From Peribolospora baueri (taxonomy: Eukaryota > Basidiomycota > Peribolosporomycetes > Peribolosporales > Peribolosporaceae): DNA of 64,000 nucleotides. The DNA lies in contig JAMDHS010000006.1 of assembly GCA_029717555.1 (NCBI GenBank), positions 124,001-188,000 of the forward strand, written 5' to 3'. The notes beneath the pieces were generated by a model. The model was not told the origin of the DNA. It was given only the letters and a program-made list of their open reading frames with translations, and made no database searches. Shown piece after piece: positions 3,128 through 56,700 of the stretch. The first letter of the stretch is position 1; each line of letters begins with the position of its first letter. The position numbers were made by a program, and so were the translations under genes.

Positions 3128-4638
<1,511 letters not shown>

Positions 4639-5105
4639 ATGGGTCGGCTCGGATTAGCGGTCAGACGGATCGCTCGTTCAGTATGGAAGCGTCAATGTCG
4701 GCACTCGTATTTTTTTTAAGGTGCGAGGAGACGATCCCACCCTAAATCGGGCCTGTGACCACTCATCACGCCAACGATCTCGCGGACATGTCTTTTCGGC
4801 GGACGGTCTTTGCACGGGCGGCGAAACGAATAGAGAAGAAGAGGGACGGGTACGGTAGCTAGACGACTCGTAGATACTACAAGACGAATAAACGAGCCAT
4901 CTTGGAAACTTGGAAACCACGACGATCTACCTCCTCGATAGGTAGCTTACACGTCTCACCGTGTCGCAACGTTATCTCGCCATTCGCACTATACTGCCAT
5001 TCACACGCCGGGAACTTGCGTCGAAAGGGTCGGCGTGCCGGGAGCGGGAGGGCCCGAGTGCCTCGTCTTTCCGAAAGGACGCGGAGGAGAATTGAGGCCA
5101 ATCAA
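4639..5105. other. Convergent 3' intergenic region
   Basis: About 470 bp between the ends of CBR1 (plus) and the alcohol dehydrogenase (minus). No gene, structured RNA or clear terminator was seen. A T-run lies near 4710-4717. Confidence 0.4.
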
Positions 5106-7547
5106 TCAGTCCGTCCGGCGTGGTGATGAGGAGAAGAAGCGAGCGCGCAGGGCAGGGCACGCATGGGCAGTTGCGCTGGCGGGCGCCGTGTGGCTCACCT
5201 CGATGTACGTCTTGAGGAGAGGCTTGCCCTTGGCATCGTCAAACACCTATTCCCGAGGGAGAGTAAGAACAGTATCGATGAGATCACGAGCGGAATCCAA
5301 GAAAGACGTCCACTCGATCCTTTCCACACACACACACACACACGCACCTTCTTGTCAAAAGCCTGATCGCATGGGATGGACACGTTCGTTCGGGCAAACC
5401 GACCAACCGATCAGTCAATGTACGATACTGACCACGCAACCAAGTGACAGCATCTCCTATCACGGTGCACTGGACTGGTTGGTGGAGGCACCACTTCTCC
5501 CACTTGATACAACGTACCTTGTACACTTTCGGAATCTGGTCGATCTCAAAGCTATGTGGGGGACCAGGGTCAAGAACCAACAGGCCCGATGCGAGGTGAG
5601 CGCATTGCCACGAGTCTTGATAAACGCCACTTGAGCTTCTCTACCCACCGATGTGACAAGATAGGCAAGACGGAGAACTTCTTGGGGATCATGTACTTCT
5701 CCAAGATCTCCGACCAGTACTTCTGGATGGGCGCTTGTCCACAACCGATAAGGTGGATCGCCTTCTCCATGACTGCGCCAATGTTGAGGTTGTTGCACGT
5801 GCCAACGTCTTTGTTAAAAAAATGCAGAGAGGTGGTGTGTAAGTTGTTTGTTTCGCCTAGCTCATTCATTTGTTCGAGGAAGCCACGACTGAGGGGAAGA
5901 AGACCTACAGTCAGCGATTACACTGATCCGTCCAAATTTGCGGGTTGCTAGCGTGTTAACGAGAAGGGCAATGAACATGCGTCCCCATCCGCTGCGGCGT
6001 CCTGTCAGGAGACTCACAAAGGATCATCTCATTAAGATTGTCACTCGTATCCGTCTCTGCACCTATACTACGCTGGACCTTTTGCGTGGCGGATTTCGCG
6101 TAGCGAAAGCCGGCACAGTCGATGGCCATGTCAAGGCCCTTAGGATGAAGTTCAAACTGACGGGATAGAGAGCATACGGGAGAGTTTTAAGGTGAGTGGA
6201 CAAGCGGCTCACAACAGGACGATCTGAAACACACCGCCCTGACAGCGAAGATTATGATGGCTACTCACGATCTTGTCGACGACATTCTTATCCACCTCAA
6301 AGTTGATCGGCTCGACTCCGAACTGTTTGGCAAGCTCAAGCCTCTCCGGCACACAGTCGACAGCAAAAATCCTCCTGGCCCCAAGCACTCTGAGCCACTG
6401 TGCGACGAGCTGGCCAACAGGGCCCAATCCCCACACACCGACCACATCGCCCTCTTGGAATTGCCCCTCACGCACAGCGTGGTAAGAGGTTCCGATAATG
6501 TCGCTAAGATAGAGCGCCTCCTCATCCGGAATGCCGTCAGGAATTTTGATGGTGTTGAAGTCTGCGAAAGGCATCCGAAGCCATTCGGCTTGGGCACCAG
6601 GGTAGCCACCGAGGAAGTGGGAGTAGCCTAAGGGAAGACGACAGAGGAAGCGGTTTAGACTCGACCAAACTATGGAGACTTTTGAAAGTCCGTCGACGCT
6701 CCACATGCTCACCTAGAACGCCGGCAATCCTGTGTCCGTACATCTTCTCCATTAGAGCTGAGCTGTTGGTCCGGTCACACGCGCTCATGAGGCCCTGCTT
6801 GCAGTAATCACAAGACCCACAGCCAATGTTGAAGGAGCAGACCACACGCTGTGGACAAGACACAAGAGGATGAGCCAAAAATGGAATATGTTGGACGCTC
6901 AGCTCTAATCGGAATGCCGCACAAGCCAGCATACGGCGTAGCAGCCAAGCTCACGTCTCCGGGCTTGATATTGGCAACGGCCGAACCGACTTTCTCCACC
7001 TTTCCCATACACTCGTGTCCAAGGATATCCCCTTTCTGCAGTTCAAGGATCTCTCCATGGCTGGGACGAGTTACAGACAGAGCATGTCGGCATCATCCCT
7101 ACATTTTTTCTCCTCGCCAATACGGAGCTGCTCACTAGAGGTGAAGGTCGGAGCCGCATACGGTTGTACCCGTGATCTGGATCACAGCATCCTCAGGGTC
7201 CGTCACGTCGGGCACATTGCGTTCCTCGATCTGCAGTTGTGGATACGAAGCAATTGCCGTCGTCAGACTGAAACACGGTATGACTTTGAGACAGCAATTG
7301 AAAGCGCCCTGCTGACCCTGACGTCCTCTTTCCCATACCTACACCGCAGTGTGATGAAAGGAGAGCATGGATCAGTTAAATGCCTTCTCGTCCTCTCGCC
7401 GACCCATGACCGGGACGGCTTGCCGCGCCCGGCTCACCAAACATTCGCCTTCATCTTCTCGTCCCTGTACTTGGGCTGGATATGGGTAGCCGTCGGCACT
7501 GGCCCAAGCTGCTCCTCGGCCTTCGACGCTAGGAAAGAGGTGGCCAT
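5106..7547 (-). CDS. Zinc-dependent alcohol dehydrogenase (MDR family)
   Basis: Twelve exons were joined by hand: 7438-7547, 7317-7338, 7136-7230, 6955-7060, 6713-6848, 6269-6627, 6018-6156, 5909-5947, 5649-5808, 5518-5551, 5348-5362, 5106-5246. They total 1356 nt with all phases closing, giving about 451 residues. Catalytic zinc-site elements are TTVCGSDLH and LGHECMG. The structural zinc cluster is CGSCDYCKQGLMSAC. The dinucleotide fold is VWGLGPVGQ. The order and the C-terminal LIGCGQAPIQKYW match the formaldehyde-dehydrogenase-like branch of medium-chain dehydrogenases. Substrate is not determinable. One exon is only 15 nt (AFDKK) and exon 2 is 22 nt. The C-terminus is least certain: I read through a possible last donor (GTGAGC) after KTYIE to a stop at 5106. 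A TATA box lies about 95 bp upstream of the chosen ATG. Confidence 0.85.
5325..5342. repeat. (CA)n microsatellite inside an intron
   Basis: About nine CA units in the last intron of the alcohol dehydrogenase. On the coding strand it reads GTGCGTGTGTGTG, so the repeat begins at the 5' splice donor itself. Length changes here could create or shift donor sites. Confidence 0.8.
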
Positions 7548-22143: not shown

Positions 22144-22349
22144 CTTGTCCCGGAACTGATGTATCGCTGCTCTTCAGCTTTAGGTATGACGTCCAGACGT
22201 TCGTGGGCATGAAGATGCGAATGGACTGCCCACAATCCGACGCGGGCCCACGCGCTTGCCGCCTTAGCACGTGACACACGACGGCGTCCGCAGTTGCGGA
22301 GCACGGCACGTTTGTCAAAAGCCTCCGAAGAATTCTTGGACCCGTTAAC

Positions 22350-22412
22350 GTAGAATATAGACATGTTATTGTAGAATTTGGACACGTTACTGTAGAATAT
22401 AGATACGTTTCT
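22350..22412. repeat. 21-bp tandem repeats, array A (3 units)
   Basis: Three units of the type GTAGAATATAGACATGTTATT at 22350-22370, 22371-22391 and 22392-22412. The same unit recurs in reverse complement at 23211-23274. Confidence 0.85.
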
Positions 22413-22465
22413 GAGAGAGGGTAGTCGTCGGAGTTAGGCGGGGATTGGTACACAAACCCACACAA

Positions 22466-22487
22466 CGCGAGTCACAGGACCGAGAAG
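22466..22487. repeat. 22-bp perfect inverted repeat, left copy
   Basis: This 22-mer, containing GCGAGTCACAGGACCGAG, is exactly reverse-complemented at 23426-23447 in the LYS1 upstream region. Both copies are preceded at a short distance by the direct 11-mer TACACAAACCC. The 22-mer therefore appears flipped in place relative to its flank. Confidence 0.8.
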
Positions 22488-22533
22488 ACCAGCAACTGCG
22501 GCGTATTGAAATAACGAATCTGTAAATCATACT

Positions 22534-22680
22534 TACCCAAACATAAACCTTATTTAGCCAGACATACATCTCGTTTAACCAAACATTAATCTTGTTTAGC
22601 CAAACATACATCTTGTTTAACCAAACATAAATCCTCTTTAACTAAACATTAAACTTGTTTACCCAAACATGAACCTTGAG
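22534..22680. repeat. 21-bp tandem repeats, array C (7 units)
   Basis: Seven consecutive 21-bp units of the type TAGCCAAACATACATCTTGTT. They alternate loosely between TAGCC, TAACC and TACCC starts. The sequence differs from array A but the period is identical. Confidence 0.85.
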
Positions 22681-23036
22681 TTGCCGGATGTTCATCTTGC
22701 CTGTCCGAATGGTTTTCCTGCAACGCCTTCTGATTCATCTCGGACCAACAAACACACGGCCGATCTTCAGAGCCAAGCACAGCGCAGCACGATGGATATA
22801 CCGCAGAACGCAAGCGTCTTCCACATGCGGCGCACGGACGACTGGTAGTCTACATGTAGAGCAGTCGGCGTAAAACAAACAGGGTGCCACTAATCGCCTA
22901 TCGTACCATGTCGTCCTTCGAAGCGACGGTTACACCGTGTCGGATCGAAAACGTGCTTCGAGTCAGAAAAGATTGAATACGTATGGACAGCTAAAACAAA
23001 GTGGACCAGACAAAGAAACGAACAGAGAAGATAAGG

Positions 23037-23091
23037 GTAAGGATGGATGGAGGGATGGAGGGATGGGTGGATGGATGGATGAAGCAGACAA
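23037..23091. repeat. (GGAT)n microsatellite
   Basis: Imperfect GGATGGAGGGATGGATGG tract in the AT-richer region between SPC24 and the LYS1 copy. Confidence 0.7.
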
Positions 23092-23210
23092 AAGCAAGAT
23101 GGACTATTGCGCTGTTTGACTTCTATTCTTTGCCATCAAGAATGACATTAAGGTGATATACATTTGCGCATCCTTAATTAACATTCAGGCCGTCAAAGAC
23201 TGTAGAGAGG

Positions 23211-23274
23211 TATCCAATATTCTATAATAAGGTGTCCATATTCTACAGTAACGTGTCTATATTCTACAACGTAT
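23211..23274. repeat. 21-bp tandem repeats, array B (3 units, inverted relative to A)
   Basis: Units such as TGTCCATATTCTACAGTAACG at 23233-23253 and 23254-23274, plus one at about 23212-23232. They are the reverse complement of the array A unit. Confidence 0.85.
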
Positions 23275-26824: not shown

Positions 26825-27062
26825 TGTGGGATTCCATTCCACTGGTCCGGTCATCTCCGCTTGTGTCCGCCCCCGTCCCTAGAATGACGCTAGAGCATTC
26901 ATCACTCCGTTAGCTCCCGACCCCTTGCGCGCATTCGAGGGCTGAGCCCCTCACGAGTATATAAGTAACGCTCCGCGAGCGCCCCCTATGTAGCAACCTA
27001 AGTGATCTTCCTCACGTAAGCGTCCGGGACATACGTGAGCTCTCATCTTTCGAAAGACGAGT
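26825..27062 (+). mobile_element. LTR of a Ty3/gypsy element (fossil), forward
   Basis: It begins TGTGGGATTC with ACTGGTCCGGTCAT soon after, and has a TATATAAG box near 26958. It ends in a TTCCTCACGTAAGCGTC and CTTTCGAAAG-containing stretch. The same ordered blocks occur inverted at about 28737-29011 and forward at about 30668-30925. It sits directly upstream of the forward gag-like region. Boundaries are approximate. Confidence 0.6.
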
Positions 27063-27153
27063 TTTTTTTTATTTAGCAGACATCAAGATCGGCCGATAGC
27101 CGACAGTACAGCACGCCTCCGACCGGGTCGAGCAGGCGTACGACAACCACGAA

Positions 27154-27735
27154 ATGAACCACAGCAACAACGAGACTGACTCGATGGAGGGTCAGAGCCC
27201 GCGGCTTGCGAACACGATGGAGGGTCAGATCCCTCAGGCAGCAACGGCTCCCGTTCCGGAGCAAGCCGCGTCTCCGGAGACCACCGACGATCGTTGGGAG
27301 CTGGCCCAGATGAACGCTTTTATGTCGACGATAACGCAACAACAGCAACAGGCGCAACAGGAGCAGCGGCAGTTTCTGTTGATCAGCCAGGCCACGATCG
27401 CCTCGCTCACCACGGCTGTGGGCAACAGGGGGCAGGAGCGCGAGAAGCCTCCCCTACGACGCTCATTCGGCCACATCCAGATCGAGCCCTTCGGTGGCTC
27501 GAAGAAGGAGGACGTGAACAGCTGGCTCGAATGTCTCGAGGACGCCCTTGCCGCCTCTGGCCTGTACAAATCGGCCTGGGTCCTGACGGCTATGGAGCGC
27601 CTCACAGGGGAGGCCCGTCAGGGGTACCTGACGATAAAGAGGGAGCTGGGGAGGGCGCTGGACTGGACGGAGTTCAAGTCCAAGATGGTGGCTAGGTTTA
27701 ACACGCCGTTCCGCCAGAATCAGATTCAGGCTTGA
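27154..27735 (+). mobile_element. Gag-like fragment, forward (Ty3/gypsy fossil)
   Basis: A capsid-like reading region with a Gln-rich coiled stretch, then the retrotransposon-gag core pattern (GGSKKEDVNSWLECLEDAL; FKSKMVARFNTPFRQNQ). It is the 5' part of an element only and is broken off. A second, inverted copy abuts it tail to tail. Confidence 0.7.
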
Positions 27736-28590
27736 AGGGAACGTCTAGGACGTCCCGCTGGATCTGATTTTGGCGGAAGGGCGTATTGAACCTTGCCACC
27801 ATCTTGGACGTGAACTCCGTCCAGTCCGGCGCCCTCTTCAGCTCCCTCTTTATCGTCAGGTACCCCGGGCGGGCCTCTAGACGACGGGAACAGAACAACA
27901 TGACGGCATGGCACGGTTGACCGCACGTACCATGTGATCTCCTATCTGAAACGAGGTTGAAAATGATGTTGGCCTTGTCGTCTTCCGACTTGAGCACGAA
28001 TTCGCTGCAGGCCTCCAGCATGGCGTCCCGAGACGATTCGGGGAACTGGTAAAACAGGCCGGTTTTAATAAAAAAAGAGCGGGGAGTCGGAAAGCACGCG
28101 AGGAAGGGCGGGTGAGGTAAAGAAGGAAAAGTGCAAGCAGGCAGGAGCTGGCTCGTTCTACACCATGAGAGCGCCGCACCAAATGGGCCCTATCGGATGC
28201 ACTCTGACCTCAAACTCGGTCACGATTGCGAGGGGCAAGCCTCCGCGTGAGGCGCTCCATCGCCGTCAGGACCCAGGCCGATTTGTAACCATCCTGTCCT
28301 TTCCCACTCAACGCCGTCACTGCGGAGGCGAATGAGGCCTGAGTGTCCCGCAGGAACTGTCGCTGTTCTTGGAGAACCTGCTGCTGTTGCAGTATGACGG
28401 TCTCCATGAGGGCGGTCATCTGGGCCATCATCGTGCCCATACGCGCCTCCCAACGTTGGTCGGCCAGTTGGTAGAACGCTCATGGCAGCTTGTCCCGGTG
28501 CGTGAGCGGAGCCGTCCGGGTCGTGCGCGCGGCCCGCTCCTCTCCGGGGCGCCGAGGGGTCTGACCCTCCATCGGGTCGGTCTCGTTGTT
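27725..28590 (-). mobile_element. Gag-like fragment, inverted (Ty3/gypsy fossil)
   Basis: The minus strand repeats the gag-core pattern of the forward copy and a similar Gln-rich N-terminal part. The two copies form a palindrome centred near 27735-27745. This copy is broken in several places and interrupted by unrelated-looking sequence. The two cores are close in sequence, so the duplication looks fairly recent relative to the LTRs. Confidence 0.6.
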
Positions 28591-28736
28591 TCGTAGCCTC
28601 CTCGATCGGGTCGGAGGTGTGTCGTTTCGTTGCGCCAAGACGCGTCAGGTGCGTCTGAGTCGGCCGGTCTTGTCGTCTGTTGACAGGAGGGCGTCCCCTT
28701 CTACCTTTCTTTGTCGCTGCTGAGGCTGATACTGAA

Positions 28737-29011
28737 TATGGACCTCAACTTTCGAAAGTTGAGCGCTCACGTGCCGTCCCAGACGCTTACGTGAGGAAGA
28801 TCTTAGATTCGCAACACAGAATACGCCAGAGCGCTGGCTCCAGCCCCCGAATGTGGAAGAGACAGGAAAAGGGGAGAGAAGAGAGGGCGCAAGGATCCGA
28901 GAGATAACGGAGTAGGGGATGAGGCGTATCTGAGACGGGTGTCTCCAGAAAGTGGAGCGAGCCTCTAGAGACCGGGTATGACTGGACCAGTAGACTCGAT
29001 CCCAGAACCAC
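28737..29011 (-). mobile_element. LTR of a Ty3/gypsy element (fossil), inverted
   Basis: Reverse complement of the LTR pattern: ACTGGTCCAGTCAT start block, and a TTCCTCACGTAAGCGTC block near the end. It brackets the inverted gag fragment, mirroring the forward LTR at 26825. Boundaries are approximate. Confidence 0.6.
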
Positions 29012-29223
29012 CACGCAAGAACTACGTGTAAGTCGCGTCCGATGCGATGCGATGGCAACTCCTTGCAAGTGCACCGAGGCCCCTCTGAACTGCCTTCTTT
29101 GTCCTCTCTTCCCCATATCGCCGATAGATTACGCCCTAAACTTATTGCCACCCTCCCTTTCTTAGTGAATGGACGATGTAGTTATCATCGTCGGCACCCG
29201 GCCTCGACACCGCGTAAAGAATA

Positions 29224-29350
29224 GCGTGTGATTTCACATACAAACCTCGTCATAGACGGTGGCCATACCGTGGAAATTTGGCCCGACTGCGCCCCAGACC
29301 CCTGTGTACTACCATTGCGCCCACGCTCCCTCTTGATGAATACACCACGT
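29224..29350. repeat. Dispersed repeat, copy 1 (inverted partner at 32839-32963)
   Basis: About 120 bp containing CTCGTCATAGACGGTGGCCA and GCGCCCCAGACCCCTGTGT, ending near CTTGATGAATACACCACGT. Copy 2, 3.6 kb away in opposite orientation, matches closely apart from a few substitutions and small gaps. The family was not identified. Confidence 0.75.
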
Positions 29351-29360
29351 CTCAGCCATA

Positions 29361-30121
29361 GTCAAGATCACATCTGGTAGCAGGGCTCACCTTTACCTGA
29401 TCCAACTGCTCCCTGCAACTTGAACGTCAGCCTCGCAACAACGCCAGCCCCGACCTTTCAACTTACAATGAGCGCACGATACCCATTGCGTAATCTTTAC
29501 GCATTAATAGACGCACAAGTCTACCATGTCGCCCACGACGATACCGGTCGGCCCCCGAGGCAGTCGTTCGCGTCCTTCTGTCGGAGGGCTCGATGACATC
29601 CCATTCCGACAGCTGTCGTACTGTCTCCTCGACCACCGCCCGCTTCTTCGGCCCGTTGAGAAGATGGTCTTGCCGCCGAGAGCGTCGAAGATCGAGTCGA
29701 TCCTCGGCATGGGTATCGATCACCAACAGTCTCCTTGTTGAGACTGCGAAAGTCGACGCAGAACCGGTACTTTCCCTTCTGCCAGGCCAACACCACAGGG
29801 TACGACAGGCGGCCGCCATCAGGCCGCCTTCTCTCTCGACGGGCGGCCCGGTCGCGTCACCGACGGCACGGAAATCCGGATGCGGTCCGACGACTCCAGA
29901 CTGCACCCCGAGCCTCCTCGACACTGGACGCCGCCCGGGGGTACCACCAGATCCCCGTCCACCCCGACGTCCGCTGGAAAGTCGCGTCAGGAAGCAATGG
30001 GTATCGTGCACTCATTGTAAGTTGAAAGGTCGGGGCTGGCGTTGTTGCGAGGCTGACGTTCAAGTTGCGGTGAGCAGTTGGATCAGGGAAGGGTGAGCCC
30101 TGCTACCAGATGTGATCAGAT
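29361..30121. repeat. Inverted repeat, ~128-bp arms around a 0.5 kb spacer
   Basis: The left arm (29361-29488) and right arm (29993-30121) are near-exact reverse complements, including CGCAACAACGCCAGCCCCG. The spacer holds polymerase-region pieces of a Ty3/gypsy fossil. Confidence 0.75.
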
Positions 30122-30580
30122 TCAGATCAGGTTCGACGACTCCAGACTGCACCCCGAGCCTCCTCGATACATCGGGCCAAAGAAGCGGGAGGTTGTCGAG
30201 GAGACTGTACGACAGCTGTTGGAATGGGATGTCATCGAGCCCTCCGACAGCCGCCTGTCTTACCCGGTGGTGCTGGCCTGGCAGAAGGGGAAGTACCGGT
30301 TCTGCGTCGACTTTCGAAATCTCAACAACGAAACGGTGGGCGATCGCTACCCCATGCCGAGGATCGACTCCATCTTCGACGCTCTCGGCGGCAAGACGAT
30401 CTTCTCGTCCTTGGACGCTGCCAGAGGGTACCGCCAGATTCCCGTCCACCCCGACGATCGCTGGAAGGTTGCGTTTCTGACGCACATGGGCCTGTACCAA
30501 TACAAGACGATGGCCCCGGCCATTTTCCAGCGCTTCATGGACAAAGTCTTGGGCTTCCTTCGGTGGACGCAGCCGTGCGG
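29500..30580. mobile_element. Reverse-transcriptase fragments in both orientations (Ty3/gypsy fossil)
   Basis: Pieces of the pol RT region are recognisable on both strands. One is on the minus strand inside the inverted-repeat spacer. A longer one is on the plus strand after the right arm, with the Ty3/gypsy patterns WDVIEPSDS, YRFCVDFRNLN and DAARGYRQIPVH. The pieces are partial, rearranged and broken many times over. No integrase or RNase H region is seen. Confidence 0.7.
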
Positions 30581-30667
30581 AGTTGTATTGGTACAGGCCC
30601 GTGCTTTCACAGCTCGTCGTAGACTCTGGCCCCGGCTTGACCTCGGGGGAAGAAGAACAGCTGGGCT

Positions 30668-30925
30668 TGTGGGATCTGGTCTACTGGTCCGGTCATTCCC
30701 GCGCATGTCCGGTTTCTATCTACCCTATTGCTCACCATCCCACGTCCCTTCTTAAAGGAAGACACGGCCTGATGGGTGATACACAGCCCTTCTCTACTTC
30801 TCCGCATGTGGGAGCATTCTGTAATGTCCGATACTATATAAGAGGAGTCGCTGGCCGAGCTCCGATGATGGAAATCCCAAGATCTTCCTCGCGTACGCGT
30901 CTGGGACGGCACGTGACTAGATCAC
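30668..30925 (+). mobile_element. LTR of a Ty3/gypsy element (fossil), forward
   Basis: It starts TGTGGGATCT with CTACTGGTCCGGTCAT and has TATATAAG near 30835. It ends with an AAGATCTTCCTCGCG and GGACGGCACGTGA block. It lies 3' of the plus-strand RT fragment, as a 3' LTR would. Boundaries are approximate. Confidence 0.6.
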
Positions 30926-51057: not shown

Positions 51058-52777
51058 ATGGAGAAGCTCGAGCCGCTGTCCGACCTCTGTCGGCTGTCGG
51101 ATAGGATCGTTCGCATCTTGGCGCAGGTGAGTCGCAGCGAGATCCTACGGAATTCGGTCGTATGTTGGCTTTGTTGGTTGGGTATCCGGCAGGGCGAAAG
51201 GTTTACGCAGCTCTTTCTTGGTCAATGCCTGCAAGAGAGGACGCCTGCGTGGAGCAAGCTGGAGTGACAAGGATATTCACAGAATGTGCATGCTCTTTTC
51301 TCCCGCTTCTACTTTGGCCTCCTCTTGCATAGAACCCCGGCAAGTTCACCCTCCAGGGCACGAACACCTACCTTGTCGGCACGGGGCGTCGGCGCATTCT
51401 CATCGACACGGGTGAGGGAAAGCCGGAGTACATCCCCCTGCTGGAGCGCGCTCTCACAAGGCCTCCCAAGGCGGTCGTGAACGGCATTCAGAGCCAGGAG
51501 AAACCAGCGGGAGGGGGGGAGACAGAGACCTGCGCGAACATTGAGGTTTCGGACATGTGAGCACATTTTTTGTCCGTTCCTCCCCCGTGGCGATTTGGCA
51601 AGGAATGGCTGACAGGCGCTCGTCCCTTTCGAAAAGCATCTTGACCCACCGACACCACGATCACACCAGAGGCATTTTCTCCGTCCTTTCCCTCCTCTCC
51701 TCGTTGCGATCCCAGCGAGCGAACGCGACGTCCTCTTCGGTCAACCCAACCACACCTTCCCTCCCTCCTCGAATCCACAAATTTTCCGACCGATCTTCCA
51801 GTTCCATCGACTCCTCCTTCATCGAAGAACTTCGGGCCTTGCCGGCGGGCAGTTTCACTCCTGCCGCCGAGGGTAGCAGTCCCATAGCCCCACTTTTTGC
51901 TTTGGAAGATGGGCAGACGTTGATCGCTGAAGGTGGACATGGTGATTTGGAGGGAGCCGAGAACGAGAAGGGGACGAAACTCAAGGTGTTGCACACGCCT
52001 GGACACACTGAAGATCACGTCTGTTTGCTCCTCGAGGAGGAACGCCGGCCCGTGAGCGGTAACGACGACTTCACTACCAACCGGAGCATCGAGGGGTCGG
52101 CGCTCTTCACGGGCGACTCTGTCCTCGGCCAGGGGACATCTGTCTTCCAAGACCTGGGGGCATATATTTCCTCCCTTCGACGATGCCTAGAGGAACTTGG
52201 TTCTGCGAGCGCTGTCGGCGGCGACGGCGGGGAGGCAGAGGCCCAGCAGAGAGCGAAAAAGGCTCGCCTCTACCCGTCGCACGGACCATTGCTCGACGAC
52301 GGCCGGACGACAATCGAGCAGTATATCGCACACCGCCTCGAGAGGGAGGAGCAAGTCATCAAATTGCTCTCATCCTCTCCCCCCGCTACCGCTTCCGACG
52401 CCGACCCTTCGGCCGCCTCTTCGGGTACGCCCATATGGTCCATCGCAGACCTCACCACCACCCTCTACGCCTCCTACCCCCCGTCGCTCTACCCTCCTGC
52501 GGCCGGTGGCCTAGCTCTGCACCTTGAGAAGCTCCGAGCAGAATCGAGAGCAGAGCAAGTGGGGGGTACGACGTGGGAGGAATTCATCAAGACGAACGAT
52601 GGCGTCGCGAACAAGGTGGATCCACTACGGAGTTGGGAGATGTTACAGGATATGAGATGGAGGTTGACGTCGTCGACCTCGGCCCAGGTCCCCGAGCGTG
52701 CGGACGATGGGGCCGGGGAGACCGACGGCAGCAGTGGAGAAAGCAGGACGACGACGCCAGGCCCAGGCAAGCTATGA
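51058..52777 (+). CDS. LACTB2-like metallo-beta-lactamase-fold protein
   Basis: Three exons (51058-51126, 51333-51556, 51637-52777), 477 residues, in phase. [18 protein letters not shown] is the family opening, followed by ILIDTGEG. The metal motif is [12 protein letters not shown] (HxHxDH). [19 protein letters not shown] supplies the next His. [16 protein letters not shown] supplies the bridging Asp, and LYPSHGPLL the last His. Human LACTB2 is a mitochondrial single-strand endoribonuclease; the same role here is inference. The fungal protein is longer, with a Ser-rich insert after the metal motif (about residues 115-150) and an extended C-terminus ([20 protein letters not shown], then a Ser/Gly tail). 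Confidence 0.88.
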
Positions 52778-52967
52778 TGGTCCACGTCGAGTCCCTTCGC
52801 CAGTCCCTTCTAGCTCATCCATCTCTGTCGGCGTTTTCTGGCCGCTCTAAGTGGTCAAGTCTGTGAGGAAATACCAACACCTTGGATAGTAGACTGTTCC
52901 CAAATGGGTGTACGCGATCAGTCGGATGGCCAAGCAGCGATGCAGGGCAGTCGCCAGTCATGATGAC

Positions 52968-53395
52968 GTGATGTTTACATTGCGCCCTCTGCTCTACGCG
53001 CGTCGTCTCCACTCCCTCCTCCTCCTCCTCCTTCTTCCTCTCCTCCATCTATGTCCCGCCTGAAGGGCTACCTACGAGCGAAAAGGAAACTACCTAGGAT
53101 CTATGTTTTCGCCCTTCAGGCCTCCCCTCTTGAGTACTGCCTCGCTTTTTCCTAGGTAGTTTCCTTACTTTACCTTACCTTACCTTACCTTACCTTACCT
53201 TACCTTACCTAGGAAAAAGCGAGGAAGTACTTAAGGGGGAGGCCTGAAGGGCGAAAACATAGATCCTAGGTAGTTTCCTTTTCGCTCGTAGGTAGCCCTT
53301 CAGGCGGGACATAGATGGAGGAGAGGAAGAAGGAGGAGGAGGAGGAGGGAGTGGAGACGACGCGCGTAGAGCAGAGGGCGCAATGTAAACATCAC
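52968..53395. repeat. Long palindrome, ~189-bp arms with TTACC-repeat loop
   Basis: The left arm (52968-53156) and right arm (53208-53395) are reverse complements, nearly exact except for a few differences next to the loop. The 51-bp loop (53157-53207) is mostly TTACC pentamers (about eight). The arms hold nested shorter palindromes: GGAAACTACCTAGG near 53085 and its reverse complement at about 53151-53164, and GCGAAAA/TTTTCGC pairs. A (CTC)n tract lies in the left arm at about 53013-53040 and GGAGGA in the right arm. It lies between two convergent genes. It looks like a foldback/MITE-like element or a hairpin RNA source. No transposase or clear target duplication is seen. Confidence 0.85.
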
Positions 53396-53746
53396 GTGAT
53401 GACCCCCGGGCTAGTTTGACTGCCTTGCTAGTTGGCCCTTTTTTTTTTTGCCGGGGGCGAGCTGTTTAGCTTGATCATGATGGGCCGCTCAGAGGACCTT
53501 GGGCAGAAGGGCCCGTTAAAGCCCAATGTGGAGTTCACCTTCGACCGACCCAAGCTAATCTCAGGGTGGATCTTAAAGGAAACTAGTATCGACTTTGATT
53601 CCGGTAATGAGATTCAAACTCTCTCTCCCGATGCTCAAGACAAGGAAGAAAGGCATGCGACAAATAGAACCAGGAAGAAGGGTAAATAAATTGCGATAGA
53701 AAAACGACGTTCGAATAGAAATACGGCGCCGACGCAAGACAAGGTG
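53396..53746. other. 3' intergenic region after the palindrome
   Basis: About 350 bp up to the stop of the FG-GAP gene. It includes a T-run (53439-53449). No gene or RNA was supported. Confidence 0.35.
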
Positions 53747-56700
53747 TCACAGCGCGTCAAAGTTGATCGCATGGACGGCCCGCTTGCGTTCCCGCTCGTC
53801 TTCTCTCTGCGTTGAGCGAAGGCGAGGAGAGGGAGGGAAGGGGTAGGACGACAGGAGCGGTAAGGAAATCTCAGTTTCTGCCCCAGGCAAAAAAAGGTAC
53901 GATGCCGCGAAACAAAGCCGAAAAGGCACACGGGAGAACCCACCTTTTCGTTCAAGTGCAACAAGAACGTCACTCCGGCGAGCATCACGATGGCGGTGAC
54001 GAGGGTGACCGTAACCCATGGGATCCACTCTCCAGGCTGCAAGTAAAGCTCCTTGTGCCAGCCAGAAGGGTCGTCGACCTCCTTGCCGGGCTCTCCTTGC
54101 CAGGGCACGATGACGACTTGACTGTTGGGAATGACACCTTCCATGTTGACATAGTGCTTCGATTGTCTCCGCCGAGTCGTGCCCACAAAAAGGTTCTCAA
54201 CGTAGTTGTTCGTTCGCCCCAGACCGAAGTAGGAGTACGGCGTGCCGAGAGTCAAGTAGGATAGTTGCGGAAGTTGGCCGACTGGGAACATAATGTTTCG
54301 AGTGAAATGAGTGAGACGCGCTGCATGTGACTGCTTGTAAGAGTAAGTCCACTCACCTTGTGTTGCTCTCCTCTTTCCGACCGTATCAAGGATGGTGAAC
54401 TTGTAGGAAGCACCAGCGTAGTTGACGCCGAGAGGCTGGACGGCAGGAGAATCGTACGACAACGCGTGAGCCAGTTTTTTTGTTGTCCTGGCAGCAAGAC
54501 GAAGAGGTGACGCCTACCTTGTACTTCGGCTTGTCCTTTGGCTCACACTTTCCGAGACAGGCACCATTGAGAACTGAGGAGAAAATGAAAGTGCATGTCA
54601 GACCGCGAAAAGCACGCCACGTCCGCAATCGACTGCTTCGCTGCTCCATTGGCCGTGACCTCGGAGACCTGAGCCTCACCCATGGCTTTGAGGAAGAATG
54701 CATCGTGGAAGAAATTGTTCTTTATGAATGTCACCTGCCGAGTGCGGGCTCGATCGTCCCAGTCCGAGGACGGCAAGCGCTGTAAGACGATGTCGAGGGT
54801 GCCCTGAGGAGCAAGATAGAGCGTACGAGATCGTAAAAACAGGAAGGAGTTAGCGTGCGCGTCGCAAGGGAGCCCATCATAGCTGCCCCAGGGACGAACG
54901 CCACTTCGAAAAACGTCGGCGGCACCAAGATTGACTCACATCCTCGTCGACATCGAACCAGCTAGCGCTTCTCACGTCCTTAAATTTGCCCAACGCATCT
55001 ACTTGAGGACCCGTGACGACCTCAAAGGTGCCCCTCCTTTCCCATACCTTCGGATCGTCGCCGCATGCCGCGCCCTTGCCATCACAGGCCACGCTTCGGA
55101 GGAGATAAACGCGCGTTTCATCTATCTGGGCGTGGGGTGGTACGGTGAGGACGAGCAGGTCTGGGTAACCGTCCAAGTTGAAGTCGCCCGGCCGGAGAGG
55201 GACGGGTGCATTTGGTGAGGAGACGGTGTCACTGAGTACAAGTGAGTGACCTGGAAGGATAGAAGAAATGGGGATGCGGACGAGGTCCTGGATAGGTGGA
55301 ACGAGAGCAAGAGAGACGGGGTAACGGATGGAGCAAAGAGGTGAGCAAAATGGGACACTAACAACGTTCGACTGCGTGGGCATAGCACACTCACCGGGTT
55401 GCTCGGATCCACACTCATATTGAACTTGAACCCATCGTCCGCCTGACACATGTTCTCCGGATCCCTGCATGTCAACCTGCCCTGTTCATCCCTCCCTTCT
55501 CCGCCTCCTGCGGCATCAGTCCCGCCGAAAGGTTGCCCGGCGCGCTGGTTGCACAAAGGCGCCTGGCGGTTGTAAGCAATGTTGATGTAGCATTCGCCCT
55601 TGCTTCCACCGCCAAAAATGCCTCCATTTTTGTCAGGGTCGCACGATGGGAAGACTAAGTCGACCGTGCCATCCCGGTTCATATCCGCGAAGGTCACCGC
55701 ACCCGATCCAGGTGGAAAAGTGCCGGTGCGAGAGAGGGTGAAGCCACCACTTGAAGAAGCTGAGTCACCCGCGGGCTGTGAAGGTTTCGTGTTTGTGTAG
55801 ATACGGTAAGAGAGGGATTTATGGTCGGAAGGATCAGCGCAGACTAGGAAGAGGTCTGCGAGACAGTCGCCGTTGAGGTCCACGAAGCCGCTCATGTGTG
55901 GAGTTGCGAGTTGGCAGCCAGAGTCGTCCGGAGAGTTAGAATCGGTCAAAAAAGGAGCGCTAACGCTGATGTCGCAAGGGAAACATGTGATTAGCAGGGT
56001 CCCAACAGGTCCAGGCCAGACGGTCAACACTTACACGTCAAACGCAGTCTCTTGTTCCCCTCGCCCGATGGCGTTCCTCCACATTTTCAAAGTTCGCGGA
56101 ACGGAAGCAGCAATGTCGAACGGGTGGGCGAGAAGGTCCATTCGCATATCTCCCTGGCCGTCGAAGACGAGAGGGTGTGCGAAGGTGGATGACGGAATGG
56201 GCGCGGATGACTGAACTGAAAAAAAAATATCAAAGCAAAAATAGTCAGATCATGAGCATCTAGTCTATTGGACCGGTAGAGGTTTGCCTGACAACTGACA
56301 GAATCCTCCCTCCGGCTGGCCCAACCAAAGTTGCATTTTGACTTCTTCGGTGTTCCTCTCTTTGTCGCTTGGTGGCTGGCTTTGACCCATTAGGAGCGCG
56401 TCTAACCGGCCATCGTAGTTGAAGTCCGAAAGGACAACGTCCGTGACGTGGAAAGTCGACGGCATGCTCAAAGTTGCAACAGGCTCGGTGAAGGTGAAGG
56501 CAGCTGGATGAAATATACGGAACAAGTCAGTCCGTAGGTCTAACACGCAGGGCAGAGCACTAGCTTGTCAATCTCACAATGATCCCACTTGTGCACGGTA
56601 ACAGTGTGCAGGTCGGAGCCGAGCACAAAGACGTCGGTGCTGGTCGAGAGAGTGCACGGGCATTCGGGAACGGGGGTGAAATAGGTGAGCAGACCAGACG

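Follow-up and report, generated by a model that had tools for sequence, protein, structure and literature searches.

An apparently familyless palindrome probably consists of two inverted left ends of a degenerate retrotransposon of the recombinase type

Foldback transposons and MITEs are characterized by a small loop between inverted repeats that are long and nearly perfect. Among retrotransposons that carry a tyrosine recombinase, Ngaro elements have ends arranged as A-pol-B-A-B, and two of them are described from the compact Pucciniomycotina genome of Sporobolomyces roseus (extract of PMC3783388). Both terminal repeats of DIRS-1 in Dictyostelium, which are inverted, are described as having promoter activity and apparently give a Dicer substrate (extract of PMC4482531). 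Many of the prolific siRNA loci of Naumovozyma castellii are palindromic (extract of PMC7528652), and in Microbotryum lychnidis-dioicae Argonaute, Dicer and RdRP are reported to be all present (extract of PMC4469406). Judging by titles and abstract openings, no case like the one described below is apparent among the papers listed by searches on foldback or palindromic retroelements and small-RNA loci. The locus reported here is a palindrome which, with a probability of about 0.6, is a short, non-coding foldback element, non-autonomous and derived from a retrotransposon family of the tyrosine-recombinase (Ngaro/DIRS-like) kind. It would consist of the left terminus and 5′ leader of the family, placed tail to tail with its inverted self and with a TTACC loop between the two.

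An inverted-repeat search of the 64-kb window, i.e. the whole stretch of DNA analyzed, shows a near-perfect palindrome of ~436 bases at positions 52963–53400. It is detected as an inverted pair of 165 nt with 99% identity (52963–53127/53236–53400) and a second pair of 34 nt with 91% identity (53125–53158/53206–53239). When combined, the two pairs form a single palindrome with arms of 196 nt (52963–53158) and 195 nt (53206–53400), separated by an asymmetric loop of 47 nt (53159–53205). A TTACC array of 9.6 copies (53163–53210) forms most of the loop. The alignment of the palindrome with itself by self-BLAST gives an E-value = 1.9e-174 over 440 columns. The original prediction of a near-perfect palindrome with a TTACC-rich loop is thus borne out by the two pairs and the array, and the shorter palindromes said to be nested in the arms are represented by the inverted pair 53083–53099/53150–53166; the sizes first given, 189 nt for the arms and 51 nt for the loop, are replaced by those measured here. 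Palindromes of such length are usually unstable.

The outer arms mirror each other without any difference over 162 nt (52966–53127). This identity fits a recent origin or ongoing homogenization of the arms, as had been proposed, the two alternatives being indistinguishable here. There are six arm differences (positions 52965, 53128, 53132, 53139, 53158 and 53160) when the count is carried to 53161, which runs a few bases past the arm into the loop, and five in the arms proper. Five of the six lie within the inner 35 nt (P = 0.0009, with the cut-point picked post hoc); for the arms proper four of the five lie within the inner 33 nt (P = 0.003, cut-point likewise post hoc).

No open reading frame of 100 aa or more (ATG, GTG or TTG start) overlaps the palindrome, in keeping with the lack of coding capacity originally noted. 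Open reading frames are found on either side, at 51557–52777 (+) and at 53635–54462, 54877–55470 and 55122–56030 (−), and their orientation suggests that these are convergent genes; the names first proposed for the two putative genes are LACTB2 and FG-GAP. Rfam at gathering thresholds shows no match anywhere in the 64-kb window, and ARAGORN calls no tRNA either there or in 14 loci fetched from the genome. As RNA, the palindrome has a predicted fold of −414 kcal/mol compared to a shuffle mean of −144 kcal/mol (sd 6), and none of 100 shuffled sequences is as stable.

A search of the genome (22.1 Mb, 178 contigs) with one arm, a check suggested at the outset, shows that the arm recurs. The outer ~90 nt of each arm (TCACGTGATGTTTACATTGCGCCCTCTGCTC...) represents the left terminus of a dispersed family. 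The palindrome, first described as matching no recognized family, is not a one-off sequence. Single arms are found at contigs C156, C134, C165 and C43, and a pattern search together with BLAST among the fetched loci adds two more, at C125:9188 and C155:49910. The terminus is present once at each of these six places. The nearest single copy found, that of C156, shows 96% identity over 94–95 nt, as compared with the 162 nt that are identical between the palindrome arms. Ends of the family start with TCACGTG; the left end in the window starts instead with TGACGTG. After the start, the aligned copies have a common GCG[C/T]CCTCT[G/A]CTC block, and nothing is conserved outside of the terminus.

A profile of the terminus (~90 nt) yields eight ends with an E-value = 3.2e-11 or better in the window and the 14 loci and nothing else below E = 0.1, the profile having been built from those same eight ends. 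A looser scan of the same sequences with TCACGTGATGTT, allowing two mismatches or fewer, gives 25 rows. Nine of these are the eight ends, one of which is counted on both strands, and 13 are chance-like; the other three, L040:4455, L038:2043 and L059:5079, all on the minus strand, are by their context possible further ends. A 40-nt arm match at C108 is a low-complexity pyrimidine tract and was removed from the family. Two other sequences were observed next to termini. A 47-nt flank at L033 4872–4918, ~60–110 nt outside the L033 terminus, is 94% like L037:9410–9456 on the other strand, and from the sequence it appears to be a different repeat that adjoins the L033 copy. At L052 a 26-nt inverted pair with 96% identity (4138–4163/4711–4736) surrounds the terminus at 4189 and is perhaps a different small transposon.

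The alignment of the copies divides the palindrome into several parts. The left copy, in which terminus and leader extend from T[G/C]ACGTGATGTTTACATTGCGCCC... to CATCTATGTCCCG, is found at 52964–53058 (+), with the profile match extending over 52963–53051 (+). It is followed by a 52-nt insert at 53059–53110 (+), which appears as a gap block in the copy alignment, contains the first member of the nested inverted pair and is mirrored exactly at 53253–53304 in the right arm. The corresponding place in L033, L034 and L035 has no such insert. Judged by eye, a large part of the insert corresponds, in inverted form, to leader sequence that is located further in at L033. The inner left arm at 53111–53158 (+) consists of further leader sequence (GCCCTTCAGGCCTCCCC...CGCTTTTTCCTAGGTA), the first part of which is collinear with L033–L035 in the alignment, and it includes the 34-nt arm of the second inverted pair. 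Beyond the loop, which consists chiefly of TTACC pentamers, the inner right arm (53206–53304, −) mirrors 53059–53158. The right copy, i.e. the terminus and leader inverted, is at 53305–53399 (−) and ends with TCACGTGA; it is defined by the profile match 53400–53312 (−) and by pattern matches. The presence of the same 52-nt insert in both arms points to one rearranged precursor or to later homogenization.

The locus on C165 (L035) gives an indication of the parent element. On its minus strand, broken coding sequence comes after the terminus at 5290. The frame 3494–4657 closes with a stop, and a piece from that frame shows no Pfam match. The stretch past the stop matches Pfam RVT_1 with an E-value = 2.3e-9 (37.7 bits, cut-off 29.6), and thus the reverse transcriptase expected of a tyrosine-recombinase retrotransposon is present at this locus. 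A recombinase-like piece gives a weak profile match to the phrog_1 integrase (E-value = 0.0029) and a match to Pfam Phage_integrase that is below the cut-off (E-value = 0.21). The longer frames scanned, which include four frames of L035 and L051, show no Pfam match. The assignment as a recombinase relies on the weak phrog_1 match together with motifs in this stretch that appear to correspond to the tyrosine recombinase signature. The piece has 65% identity over 37 aa at C66; its single-sequence fold gives an unusable model (pLDDT 44). Comparison with solved structures yields no sensible match. The reverse transcriptase and recombinase-like pieces are on the same strand as the terminus and at most 3.9 kb away from it. 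On C134 (L034), the terminus is accompanied, in the same orientation, by DNA that aligns with the recombinase region of C165 over 613 columns at 88% identity. On C43 (L036), ~110 nt past the terminus, 119 nt are 89% like the right end of the C165 element. The terminus is therefore bound to one element, since the copies at C165, C134 and C43 each join it to parts of that element.

The right end common to L035 and L036 (GCGCGGGAGCAGTGCG) differs from the inverted left end, and neither of the 10-kb loci, C165 and C43, shows a second terminus. An internal repeat of the left end, which would correspond to the Ngaro A repeat, was not found in 10 kb around the C165 copy, which is degenerate and has one A only; the split direct repeats A-pol-B-A-B are not present in it. 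Inverted terminal repeats of the DIRS type are not seen on the coding element either, the right side of L035 having no inverted left terminus. The L035 pieces scanned, which are some of the broken frames, show no Pfam match to an N6-adenine methyltransferase domain. Matches to the reverse transcriptase piece occur in at least one place in the genome and matches to the recombinase piece in at least two, and no intact element that could copy the palindrome was found. In the C165 copy a stop lies between two reverse transcriptase stretches and the recombinase is split over frames. The family looks degenerate in this genome because the reverse transcriptase and recombinase places are few. Taken at the level of sequence, it is most likely a degenerate tyrosine-recombinase (Ngaro/DIRS-like) retrotransposon, and as neither the DIRS nor the Ngaro end pattern is seen in the C165 copy it is named Ngaro/DIRS-like and assigned to neither.

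The resemblance to known systems is partial. As in Ngaro (extract of PMC3783388), reverse transcriptase and recombinase-like coding occur in one element with non-matching left and right ends, but the C165 copy has no internal A repeat and the palindrome is non-coding with two inverted left ends. As in DIRS-1 (extract of PMC4482531), the palindrome unit is flanked by inverted terminal sequences, whereas the coding copy lacks an inverted right end and no methyltransferase domain is found in the pieces scanned. The long near-perfect inverted repeats and small loop are those of foldback transposons and MITEs, but the other family members are one-ended in the loci examined and the family is retrotransposon-derived. 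Thus of the two classes originally suggested, foldback holds in form, and MITE does not, the recurring unit being a single left terminus of an element with reverse transcriptase and recombinase-like coding.

On either side, the palindrome has its outer boundary at the element terminus, and for this reason a foldback molecule with two left ends, inserted as a unit, is the preferred origin. A foldback copied to its own end would stop at the terminus, whereas a duplication made in place would not be expected to do so. The following sequence of events may be proposed. The left end would have been rearranged first, and the mirror copy then made from it, or the arms homogenized later. An incomplete DNA strand of the element could have folded back near its inner end and, through template switching or self-priming, been copied as far as its own left end. 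The product, with a left end on each side, would then have inserted as a unit between two genes. The TTACC center would prevent a perfect palindrome. In its present position the palindrome would be passive in intergenic space. Read-through RNA from either gene, or the activity of the duplicated leaders if they have retained a promoter, could produce a hairpin of almost 200 base pairs, and such RNA could be cut by any RNA-silencing machinery. With respect to a target-site duplication, which had been suggested as a check, the flanks have only TGA (3 nt) in common; moving the terminus inward by four bases gives agreement at 7 of 8 bases. No clear target-site duplication is seen, and a repeat of 3 nt or 7/8 nt is no proof of insertion as a unit.

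The terminus is shown at both ends in one of the seven places that bear it, namely in the palindrome. In L042 the right side compared with its own mirrored leader scores 65, the highest of 100 shuffles being 63; with a tighter region the score of 65 falls below the maximum of 82 in 200 shuffles. The mirrored end is below the shuffle maximum in L034 (49 versus 51), L033 (32 versus 39), L040 (28 versus 47), L035 (27 versus 35) and L059 (25 versus 34). A further two-ended copy is thus not established in any of these six loci.

That single left ends are the rule elsewhere also accords with a duplication in place, in which one truncated left end was inserted and a later replication template switch produced the inverted duplication on site. 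Inverted duplications recur in element remnants, including an unrelated Ty3/gypsy-like remnant described below, and recurrence in unrelated element classes suggests a general chromosomal or cDNA process. However, the block on the far side would need to stop at the terminus, where both ends of the palindrome do lie, and the outer flanks beyond the terminus are not mirrored. A duplication in place is accordingly considered unlikely, though it deserves consideration. Quite improbable is an internal-deletion derivative of a DIRS-type element that had this sequence as inverted terminal repeats at both of its ends. The inverted left terminus at both ends of the palindrome agrees with DIRS-type inverted terminal repeats (extract of PMC3783388), but C165 and C43 share a different right end, neither of these 10-kb loci has a second terminus, and both arms of the palindrome carry the insert that is missing from three single copies.

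A further question is whether selection maintains the locus to supply hairpin RNA for silencing of the retrotransposon family, which appears doubtful on the evidence as a whole. The earlier suggestion of a hairpin-RNA locus is structurally sound, since a transcript running end to end is predicted to be almost fully paired. The genome also contains an Argonaute-like domain, detected as a Pfam Piwi (PF02171) match at C96:15457–15651 (E-value = 2e-12, 50.1 bits, cut-off 28.9), with a second Piwi stretch at C96:14805–14903 that is below the cut-off. The frame of the first fragment contains a stop (TGA), which counts against the proposal, although the TGA is possibly part of an intron. No genome match was found for RdRP (PF05183), but the control set was equally silent, so that nothing follows from this. 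Positions that start a 22-mer identical to the palindrome number 41 in L033, 10 in L035 and 8 in L036; however, those of L035 and L036 are confined to one tract of ~30 nt, and in a pyrimidine tract of L037 this way of counting yields 4 matches that look like chance. The palindromic siRNA loci of N. castellii (extract of PMC7528652) and the promoter-active repeats of DIRS-1 (extract of PMC4482531) provide precedents. Like those of N. castellii, the present locus is an inverted repeat with a predicted hairpin transcript, here in a different, fungus-like genome. Against selection, inverted duplications may also originate and be retained by neutral processes.

The two weakest explanations, both very improbable, are a DNA transposon with very long terminal inverted repeats, such as a MITE, which the short, palindromic, non-coding and intergenic character of the feature would suit but which does not agree with the six one-ended places within the loci examined, the terminus running into reverse transcriptase/recombinase-like DNA or the lack of a clear target duplication, and an assembly or library foldback artefact, against which stand the several arm differences, the mutually unrelated outer flanks and the single arms of the same family elsewhere.

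The doubled left end, as the palindrome is here preferably read, is accompanied by other inverted duplications. Self-BLAST of the window and the 14 loci gives internal repeats of at least 35 nt, of which 26 are inverted and 14 are direct. Some of the rows overlap, and 9 of the 14 direct repeats are tandem or nearly so (gap <100). Inverted rows occur in eight of the 14 loci (L033, L034, L039, L040, L041, L042, L051 and L059) and in none of the other six (L035–L038, L052 and L058). The sample is biased because the loci were selected for their resemblance to the arm, the L033 element, two protein pieces and the C165 right end. The region 27.0–30.9 kb of the window is less biased, as it was already part of the window. 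It holds a Ty3/gypsy-like remnant (26986–30916) with an RVT_1 match in one of five frames (E-value = 8.5e-9) and a gag-like sequence by eye. This remnant carries many inverted duplications of 38–157 nt, a 268-nt palindrome at 27610–27877 and TCACGTGCCGTCCCAGACGC arms at 28767 and 30916. The loops of eleven single-center palindromes are ~14–78 nt in length, with 10 of the 11 at 44 nt or less; by the same measure the loop of the window palindrome is 38 nt. An identity gradient from outer end to center was considered for 11 palindromes and rejected, as identity follows no consistent trend once the quarter with the loop is set aside.

Several other inverted structures were observed. In the window, an inverted pair of 113 columns with 92% identity (29243–29350/32840–32952), its members ~3.5 kb apart, extends beyond the main remnant. 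Two tandem arrays with a 21-bp period are inverted ~0.8 kb apart at 22339–23269, with a third 21-bp-period array between them. L042 contains a hairpin at 5348–5504 with 58-nt arms (97%) and a loop region that is tRNA-like by eye, for which ARAGORN makes no tRNA call. A stretch of the L042 element is 97% like C77:103730–103796 on the other strand. Short stretches at C90:410530–410604 and C22:102737–102808 match the arms of the L042 hairpin on both strands and for this reason are probably small palindromes themselves.

A wider proposal is that long inverted duplications with short asymmetric loops have formed from remnants of two unrelated classes of retroelement, tyrosine-recombinase and Ty3/gypsy-like, and that these palindromes jointly act as built-in sources of hairpin RNA for Argonaute-based silencing. 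The palindrome at 53 kb would then target the 5′ leader of the recombinase family and would be the most perfect one seen. As a whole this proposal is speculative and improbable. The main interest of the findings is the recurrence of inverted duplications in the retroelement remnants of this genome, where remnants of two classes carry long palindromes. If this were to hold genome-wide, the duplications may represent either a mutational signature of retroelement copying by self-primed foldback, or natural hairpin loci for silencing.
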